Positions 11,027 to 40,284 of a stretch of DNA of 64,000 bases are shown in pieces. Every line of letters starts with the position of its first letter. Position 1 is the first letter of the stretch. A program made the position numbers and the translations under genes. This DNA is from Candidatus Omnitrophota bacterium. Its GTDB lineage: Bacteria > Omnitrophota > Gorgyraeia > JAUYCX01. The DNA lies in NCBI GenBank assembly GCA_030692045.1, contig JAUYCX010000037.1:186001-250000 (forward strand), read 5' to 3'. The notes under the pieces are model-generated. The model had not been told where the DNA came from and made no database searches. It saw only the letters and a program-made list of their open reading frames with translations.

Positions 11027-11055
11027 TTGAAATTCAGCCATTTTCGTGTTATATT
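11027..11055 (+). promoter_or_regulatory. Promoter of the GEMM riboswitch
   Basis: TTGAAA at 11027-11032 and TATATT at 11050-11055 are separated by 17 bases. The expected start near 11062 coincides with the first base of the riboswitch P1 helix. Confidence 0.75.
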
Positions 11056-11062
11056 TATTTAT

Positions 11063-11237
11063 AGCCGATAAAGGTTATCTCCGGCGAAAGCCGGAGGTCG
11101 CAAAGCCAACAGGCCTAAGTTGCCTGAAAAAGACCCCGCTAAACGCGGGGCAAACCAATGCCGGTTAGGCAAAAAATAAGGCAAGATGGCGGCTGGGTTG
11201 CCGAAGTGAGGTGAAGGAAGCTAATCCTTTATCGGCT
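11063..11237 (+). ncRNA. Cyclic-di-GMP-I (GEMM) riboswitch
   Basis: A 12-bp outer helix, AGCCGATAAAGG with CCTTTATCGGCT, encloses the GEMM core. The core has a CTCCGG stem capped by a GAAA tetraloop, the conserved CGCAAAGCC junction, GGCCTAA (tetraloop receptor side), and the diagnostic ATGGCGGCTGGGTTGCCGAAG. An extra GC-rich hairpin (CCCCGC/GCGGGG) extends the second arm. In characterised examples this fold binds c-di-GMP. Here it is followed 28 bases later by an intrinsic terminator. GAGGTG at 11208-11213 can pair with CACCTC of that terminator, suggesting transcription control. Confidence 0.87.
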
Positions 11238-11264
11238 CGCAATCTTAAAAATTAGAATTTACTC

Positions 11265-11294
11265 ACACCTCCAAAATTATGGAGGTGTTTTTTT
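11265..11294 (+). terminator. Intrinsic terminator after the GEMM riboswitch
   Basis: ACACCTCC pairs with GGAGGTGT (8 bp, 8-base loop) and is followed by a T-run to 11294. It is probably the expression platform of the riboswitch. Read-through would reach the YkgJ-like gene. Confidence 0.88.
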
Positions 11295-11315
11295 GTCCGC
11301 AGTAGGCGGGTATTC

Positions 11316-11326
11316 TATGCTATAAT
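11316..11326 (+). promoter_or_regulatory. Extended -10 promoter placing the start site at an ATG
   Basis: TGC-TATAAT has its hexamer at 11321-11326. The expected transcription start, about seven bases further, is the A of the ATG at 11333. This implies a leaderless mRNA for the YkgJ-like gene when it is made from this promoter. No clear -35 box is seen. Confidence 0.5.
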
Positions 11327-11332
11327 AAAACC

Positions 11333-11605
11333 ATGAGCGAATACGAAGCATATCAAGACAGAAAGTCTCAAGATTATGAGGCACTTTGCAAACGCTGCGG
11401 TGCTTGCTGCGGTGCTTTGGATAAAGACCCTTGTGAACATCTTAAATTAGCAGGAGATGAAACATACATTTGCGATATTTATGAATACAGATTTGGCCTT
11501 CGGACTACAGTTGGTGGTAAGAAATTTCTCTGCATGCCCATCCGTAGAATTCTGTTTAAAACCTGGAGCGGTAGTGAATTTTGCGCCTACAAGAAGAACC
11601 CTTAG
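11333..11605 (+). CDS. YkgJ-like cysteine-cluster (metal-binding) protein
   Basis: A 90-residue protein with C-K-R-C-G-A-C-C near residue 20, followed by further cysteines at D-P-C, Y-I-C, F-L-C and F-C. This is the pattern of the zinc/iron-chelating YkgJ family (CxxCxxCC box). Its biochemical role is unsettled. It has no Shine-Dalgarno sequence and sits six bases after a -10 box, so translation may be leaderless. It is also the only gene in reach of the upstream c-di-GMP riboswitch, an odd target for that ligand. Confidence 0.75.
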   Translation: MSEYEAYQDRKSQDYEALCKRCGACCGALDKDPCEHLKLAGDETYICDIYEYRFGLRTTVGGKKFLCMPIRRILFKTWSGSEFCAYKKNP

Positions 11606-11850: not shown

Positions 11851-12819
11851 ATGTTTTCACTAAAATTAAGAATGTGGTTATTGTGGATTGTGATGTTTGG
11901 AATTATTTACGCCATTGTTTCAATGCTTTCATATTCGTTTTTTGGCGTAAGGAATTTCAATTTCTATTTAGTCGTTTCTTTTATCATGATGTTTATTCAG
12001 TATATGATTGGCCCAAAGCTTGTGGAATGGTCAATGCGGGTTAAATATGTAAGAGAGCAGGAGTATCCGGAGCTTTTTCAGATGATTAGGGGGCTTTCTC
12101 AATTAGCCAATGTGCCAATGCCTAAGATTGGTATTTCCGATGTGTCACTTCCCAATGCCTTTGCCTTTGGCAGATGGAAGCGCGACGGAAGAATTTGCGT
12201 AACCAAAGGCATTTTAGGCCTACTGGATAGAGAAGAGCTGCGCGCAGTTTTAGGCCATGAGATGACTCACTTAAAAAATCGCGATGTCCTAACCATAACA
12301 CTTCTTTCAGTTATCCCTATGGTGCTTTACAGAATTGCCTGGAGCACGATGTATTATCGCGGTTCACGCAACCGTAGTGATGGCGCCAATACGGCTCTTA
12401 TTGGAGTGCTGGCATTTATTTTTTATTTTATCACCAACCTTTTAGTTCTTTATGCCTCAAGGATAAGAGAATATTTTGCTGATCGGGGTTCCGTATCTTT
12501 AGGTAATCCAGCGCATAATTTAGCCTCTGCACTTTATAAATTGGTTTATGGCGCTGCCAGAACTCCCAAAGAATCTCTGGCAGAGGTTGAAGGGCTTAAG
12601 GCGTTTTTTATAAATGACCCCTCTGTTGCATTGAAAGAAATCAGAGAGTTAAGTGTAATAGATAAAGACCACAGTGGTTCAATTGATTCTTTAGAATTAA
12701 TGGCTTTAAGAGACAAGCAAGTTAAAGTTTCAGCCGGAGCAAAACTTATGGAATTGTTAAGCACTCATCCAAATATGCTTAAGCGCATTAAACAATTGTC
12801 CAGCTACGAAAGGCTTTAA
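11851..12819 (+). CDS. htpX: HtpX-family membrane zinc metalloprotease with an EF-hand loop
   Basis: A 322-residue M48 protease. N-terminal membrane segments lie near residues 10-55, the zinc site H136-E-M-T-H140 and the third ligand E207 in R-E-Y-F-A-D follow, and two further hydrophobic stretches lie around 147-165 and 183-202. Family members degrade misfolded membrane proteins. Residues 271-282 form a textbook EF-hand calcium loop (D-K-D-x-S-G-x-I-D-x-x-E) in a C-terminal insertion, which E. coli HtpX lacks. The ATG at 11851 follows AAAGGAGG. Expression is probably influenced by the structured leader. Confidence 0.9.
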
Positions 12820-40061: not shown

Positions 40062-40068
40062 TATAAAG

Positions 40069-40243
40069 CTTTCGGGATAAGGTGAAATACCTGACTGGTA
40101 GTGAACCCTTAAGCGTAGTCGAAGGGTAAGCCTACGAGCCTTGAGCGAAGCGGAAGGCGAAGTCCCGCCAAAGGCGGGACGAGGACTCAAGGTTGAGTTG
40201 GTGAAATGCCAACGCCAATAGTATAGTCTAGATGGGAGAGAGC
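40069..40243 (+). ncRNA. FMN riboswitch (RFN element)
   Basis: Conserved blocks are in order: GGGATAAGGTGAAATACCTG and ACTGGTAGTGA, then GCCTACGAGCC, then TTGGTGAAATGCCAAC, GCCAATAGTATAGTC and TAGATGGGAGAGAGC. Outer helix GCTTTC pairs with GAGAGC. The variable arm is long and GC-rich (a CCCGCC/GGCGGG hairpin). It senses FMN and sits before ribBA-ribH-ribD-ribE. Confidence 0.96.
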
Positions 40244-40284
40244 AGAACCACAGATTACACAGATTTAGACTTGATTACACAGAT

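Follow-up and report, generated by a model that had tools for sequence, protein, structure and literature searches.

A conserved GEMM-I aptamer RNA of Omnitrophota with a long P1 helix, a putative promoter and terminator of its own, and a changing downstream gene

The window, that is, the whole stretch of 64,000 nucleotides from a Candidatus Omnitrophota bacterium that was analyzed, contains a GEMM-I (c-di-GMP-I) aptamer that precedes a small cysteine-cluster open reading frame (ORF). The features of the locus are as follows.

11027..11055, + strand: putative promoter of the RNA, TTGAAA-17-TATATT with TG before the -10 (10/12, sigma-70-like)
11063..11205, + strand: GEMM-I (c-di-GMP-I) aptamer, RF01051, 48.8 bits
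11063..11074, + strand: 5' strand of P1, AGCCGATAAAGG, including the pocket base G20 (11073)
11124..11180, + strand: 57-nt insertion in the P3 loop, with extra hairpins
11207..11225, + strand: linker
11226..11237, + strand: 3' strand of P1, CCTTTATCGGCT, complementary to 11063-11074
11265..11295, + strand: intrinsic terminator, stem 11265-11288 (9 pairs) plus T-run
11318..11326, + strand: extended -10 box TGCTATAAT, ending 6 nt before the ATG, candidate leaderless promoter of the ORF
11333..11605, + strand: 90-aa cysteine-cluster ORF, YcgN-like, the next gene after the RNA

The match to RF01051 (gathering cut-off 35, E 1.7e-6) confirmed the GEMM-I aptamer that the first-pass annotation had recognized. 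The aptamer possesses G20, the conserved GCAAAG stretch and the terminal GCCGAA, all sequence marks of GEMM-I. We take the numbering of G20 to be that of the Vc2 structure, assume for G20, A47 and C92 their usual roles in the GEMM-I aptamer, and regard an A at position 20 as presumably the mark of the cGAMP-type GEMM-Ib. The specificity base, which the annotation had singled out as worth checking, was G in the window and in 81/81 loci examined (the best 81 matches of model R1, described below), suggesting c-di-GMP rather than cGAMP as the ligand. cGAMP specificity was ruled out on this base, as A20 was absent from the window and from all of these loci. Three ordinary Omnitrophota GEMM-I aptamers (L008, L017 and L022, ~1501-1592) have A, not G, at position 20, GATAATAGCAAAC. 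The P3 insertion of the window copy had not been noticed in the first-pass annotation, and the J1/2 of this copy is unusual, reading GGUUAUC instead of GGCAAAC (3/81 loci). The 241-nt leader folded 6.1 sd below dinucleotide shuffles (z -6.1; 0/200 as low). An FMN riboswitch is also present in the window (40064-40247, 88.4 bits).

The promoter and the terminator proposed earlier were both borne out by our scan, which found 4 promoter-like sites (2.0 expected) and 3 terminator-like sites (1.0 expected). From these two signals, the transcript is predicted to be ~235 nt long, starting near 11057 and ending after 11288. The 12-bp P1 that encloses the aptamer had likewise gone unnoticed in that annotation. 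In the centroid fold, GGUGAAGGA of the linker (11210-11218) can pair with UCCUUUAUC (11225-11233) and thereby competes with P1. The terminator was predicted to form at 0.9996 in the full transcript, and a T-tract after P1 is missing in the window (3 T in 12 bases). The annotation had further proposed an antiterminator between GAGGTG (11208-11213) and CACCTC (11266-11271). These segments are complementary, but the forced antiterminator fold at full length (-72.5 kcal/mol) lay 19.6 kcal/mol above the best fold (-92.1 kcal/mol), which contains the terminator, and its base-pair probability was < 2e-4 at the tested transcript lengths where formation was possible. The antiterminator was therefore rejected for the window, and it may still apply to loci in which the RNA adjoins a YcgN-like gene.

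The 90-aa ORF is present as annotated and has real homologs, which were found in 24/59 genomes searched, and its eight cysteines are conserved across 10 aligned sequences. Relatives in named records belong mostly to Candidatus Omnitrophota, with some from Neomarinimicrobiota and others. The name YkgJ had to be given up. A Pfam search with the window protein returned 0 families at E 10, and the CxxCxxCC (YkgJ) family PF03692 matched one of the 10 aligned proteins (E 3.5) and missed the window protein, so that membership was rejected. The nearest models were those of NCBIfam YcgN (PRK05170 models; best 20.7 bits, E 3.3e-4), far under the cut-off of 150; the protein thus appears to bear a distant resemblance to YcgN, below the level of membership. 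A c-di-GMP link to the htpX region had also been suggested. However, a close htpX directly behind the YcgN-like gene was seen in no loci other than the window and those of f34 (L066/L195, L067), indicating that htpX is not a conserved partner. The HtpX-like M48 peptidase of the window (11851-12819) contains an EF-hand-like stretch at residues 265-285 (E 1.2e-4, below the Pfam cut-off).

RF01051 was common in the class to which the window belongs (54/59 genomes at E 0.001). Among 80 named loci with a homolog of the 90-aa gene, GEMM-I was directly upstream in four (L066, L067, L072 and L092) and further upstream in two (L095 and L123), and none was found near the remaining 74 at the gathering threshold. 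The promoter, P1 and long P3 of the window are common to the four loci and L095. In most such loci, trp genes or an exonuclease gene are followed by the RNA and the YcgN-like gene, often with zinc ribbon (ZnR), M20 peptidase and DUF3108 genes behind. Model R1, which was built from six of the window-like RNAs, found matches in 257 of 384 class genomes at 1e-6, ordinary GEMMs included. In a phylum-wide draw of 384 genomes, 113 had a match at 1e-12, all in the same class except G405 (61 bits). We examined the best 81 R1 matches, which carry 18 family labels; the hits at the window and at L067 were represented by those two loci themselves. The pattern GATAAAGGTTATCNCC with one mismatch matched 117/384 genomes; these matches were taken as mostly due to chance and were not used, and locus L230, fetched for such a match, was dropped.

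A near-invariant long P1, GCCGATAAAG/CTTTATCGGC, closes the aptamer in 77/81 of these best R1 matches, and the pocket base G20 usually falls within the helix. The complement of the 5' strand lies 5-94 nt beyond the core, and in most cases the two strands read GCCGATAA[AG]G and CTTTATCGGC. Long-P1 sequences served to build R1, which is therefore biased toward the P1 5' strand; the model ends before the 3' strand, which was therefore not selected for by the search. R1 was used for finding only, because some of its RNAalifold pairs are doubtful. In an alignment of 61 sequences (long-P1 loci of moderate length only, at most 6 from family f19), both-side changes in P1 occupied 10 cells, a value reached in 0/500 shuffles, and the number of pairs with both-side changes was 3, with 45/500 shuffles as high. 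T occurred at at least 5 of the 12 bases following P1 in 68/77 loci. Further, a promoter-like site (at least 9/12) was detected at the same place in 63/80 loci versus 101/1600 mononucleotide shuffles. Among ordinary GEMMs of the class (n=34), the long P1 was absent except in L006, L028 and L030. In the 3' flank of L006, 13 nt within the terminator hairpin that follows are complementary to the 5' strand of the aptamer, possibly a different switch.

In many loci trpF is adjacent to the RNA, and the next gene varies: YcgN-like, zinc ribbon, DAHP synthase, very long secreted-looking proteins and others were seen. Gene calls were automatic, except that the DAHP synthase gene next in L197 was set to the same strand by hand, and neighbour names such as RsmE and GH1-like were assigned by eye. 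In the 77 long-P1 loci, the next gene was on the same strand in 55 and on the opposite strand in 20, with none within the stretch in two. All 15 members of one family had an opposite-strand next gene and make up 15 of these 20 cases. Both neighbours were opposite in 17 loci of four families (f19, with 14, f38, f43 and f46), and in f19 an opposite-strand gene stands on each side of the RNA. In ordinary GEMMs, the next gene was opposite in at most 2/34. As in a cis-acting riboswitch, a terminator stands before the gene, but a conserved same-strand target is absent; as in merRNA (see below), an aptamer with its own promoter and terminator has no conserved downstream ORF. The riboswitch had been read as belonging to the lone 90-aa gene, whereas the RNA is conserved and the gene behind it is not.

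An extended -10 box (TATAAT) before the window ORF, absent from the first-pass annotation, suggests that the gene may have its own leaderless transcript. In the long-P1 loci, a TATAAT or extended -10 was found before 18/43 same-strand next genes versus 3.7 expected from dinucleotide shuffles, often within ~11 nt of the start, and no such box was found in the other 25/43. In ordinary GEMMs, the count was 0/28 (0.8 expected). The median distance from the RNA to the next gene was 152 nt in the long-P1 loci versus 72 nt in ordinary GEMMs. The control consisted of 34 loci, mainly the highest-scoring Rfam hits; for the -10 and spacing comparison L030, itself of the long-P1 kind, was excluded, leaving 33, of which 32 had an ORF and 28 a spacer of sufficient length. 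In family f38 (L212, L231, L248 and L257), a TATAAT-like box often stands between P1 and the second hairpin, immediately behind the 3' strand of P1.

The window genome (G000; 2.19 Mb, 119 contigs) contains five RF01051 matches, four of them above the cut-off, and its 10 GGDEF and 14 PilZ matches show that it has c-di-GMP machinery. EAL domains are the usual c-di-GMP hydrolases, and none was matched in the domain search of this genome. Another GEMM-I of the genome (L004, 1665-2897) precedes a prepilin-like protein with an apparent intein/hedgehog-type (HINT) domain, as judged by eye. At L003 (103-1171), genes that by eye are PAPS-reductase-like and permease-like follow a GEMM-I located at a contig end, an unusual neighbourhood for c-di-GMP. 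At L051 (101-359), a group-I-intron-like match of 31.3 bits (cut-off 50) was observed just before a 23S rRNA piece.

An RNA whose own start and stop are conserved while the next gene changes may be a stand-alone signal-binding RNA. The aptamer, promoter, P1, terminators and changing downstream gene can be read in the sequences themselves, as predicted features, and we consider it fairly probable that the RNA works mainly as a self-contained c-di-GMP-binding RNA with its own promoter and terminator, the YcgN-like neighbour not being its fixed target. The window element would then represent a conserved RNA of Omnitrophota, in which a promoter of its own drives transcription of a GEMM-I aptamer. 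A P1 of 10-13 bp would close the aptamer and overlap the ligand pocket, and the RNA would be ended by P1 plus the U-tract, by the following hairpin terminator, or by both, in the window by the second only. Most transcripts would presumably end there. For binding, c-di-GMP would have to free AAAGG, including G20, in competition with the upper half of P1, so that the ligand would toggle the RNA between the long P1 and the aptamer. The toggle has no visible effect in cis in the window; any downstream effect may be exerted in trans or by holding c-di-GMP, as proposed for merRNA. The position before the YcgN-like gene would reflect old synteny with the trp cluster. Several observations speak against a stand-alone RNA: the missing T-tract after P1 in the window, the 25/43 same-strand next genes in which no -10 box was found, the origin of 15 of the 20 opposite-strand cases in one family, and the lack of EAL matches. 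In addition, the next gene in the window shares the strand of the RNA, and in several family labels the RNA is followed directly by a YcgN-like gene.

These last points lead to the ordinary cis-acting c-di-GMP-I riboswitch, in which the ligand would stabilize P1, the terminator would form and the YcgN-led genes would be off, whereas without ligand the linker would pair with the terminator arm and allow read-through. The RNA is immediately followed by the YcgN-like gene in the window, L066/L195, L067, L072/L196, L092/L198, L212 and L231, and in a swap test of seven YcgN-adjacent loci each linker paired better with its own terminator than with swapped ones (0/20000 permutations; ~0.00085 without the close relative L195). 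Further, the ATG directly follows the terminator in L067, L195 and L212, with hardly room for a promoter between, and stands 6-10 nt past the T-run in L067 and L195. With all loci taken together, however, excess complementarity was not significant (p 0.23 with 27 loci, 0.07 with 23 loci), nor was it found in six ZnR loci (0.76) or 10 other loci (0.53), a grouping by next gene that was chosen after the 27-locus result had been seen. The 27 loci derive from 29, L202 and L211 being without a second terminator by search; the set of 23 further drops L197 and L216 (long linkers) and L199 and L209 (no stable hairpin). The energy of the antiterminator state in the window, the unconserved downstream gene and its frequent promoter-like box also argue against this mechanism, and we regard it as unlikely for the RNA in general, if a serious competitor. 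The excess in the YcgN-adjacent loci points to possible cis control, present or past, in that branch. The earlier idea of a c-di-GMP link to the cysteine-cluster gene accordingly stands as a possibility in some lineages and falls as a general, gene-bound relation.

Control of a larger block (ZnR, M20 peptidase, DUF3108 and trpB), by which c-di-GMP would tune part of the trp cluster, seems improbable to us. Many loci retain the ZnR-M20 peptidase-DUF3108-trpB block behind the RNA, with ZnR as the first gene in L201, L205, L206, L213, L218 and L228, but a separate extended -10 often stands just ahead of the ZnR start (L201, L205, L228 and L246), the block is absent or interrupted elsewhere, and the surroundings of the f19 and f3 copies are different. 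It is more improbable still that the element is a functionless degenerate remnant kept by chance beside trpF. The odd J1/2 and modest score of the window copy would fit such decay; a near-invariant P1 with some compensatory changes across 18 family labels, the invariant G20 and the retained promoter do not.

We therefore return to the self-contained RNA and compare it with known systems. Like usual cis-acting GEMM-I riboswitches (RF01051), it has the aptamer core, the GAAA loop, G20, a promoter before and a terminator after; unlike them, it has a long near-invariant P1 over the pocket, a long P3 and a changing or opposite-strand next gene. According to its description, merRNA of Bdellovibrio bacteriovorus is a massively expressed small RNA of 445 nt that contains a c-di-GMP riboswitch without a conserved ORF downstream, was found by its authors only in Bdellovibrio, and was proposed by them as a c-di-GMP reservoir (PMC3627812). 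The Omnitrophota RNA shares with merRNA a c-di-GMP aptamer lacking a conserved downstream ORF, and differs in its predicted length of ~235 nt and its conservation over one class; the likeness is one of features. Bc1 of Bacillus thuringiensis is reported to be a GEMM-I followed by two intrinsic terminators that precedes mcpE and seems locked off at any c-di-GMP level (PMC11218506). Two intrinsic terminators also follow GEMM-I in Omnitrophota relatives; the dual terminator of Bc1 is described there as separate from P1, whereas in most relatives P1 plus the T-tract resembles the first terminator (PMC11218506). Bc1 is thus a precedent for a GEMM-I that carries two terminators and seems to be locked off in cis (PMC11218506).

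The aptamer class is known. In the literature searched, a partial selection that included few subscription journals, we found no description of a syntenic form that occurs class-wide, has a long P1, terminates itself and is followed by a changing gene. More tentatively, and with somewhat less than even confidence, we propose a class-wide, mostly single-copy, c-di-GMP-responsive stand-alone RNA in which one near-invariant helix is both ligand gate, covering G20, and terminator stem, and which acts in trans or as a c-di-GMP store; it would be a conserved counterpart of merRNA. It is customary to name a riboswitch after the gene behind it; for this RNA, adjacency alone is no ground for assuming c-di-GMP control of the YcgN-like gene or htpX. 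GCCGATAAAG ... CTTTATCGGC provides a simple sequence mark by which further copies may be sought. If the proposal is true, this RNA would provide a second, wider example of a c-di-GMP aptamer acting as an RNA in its own right.
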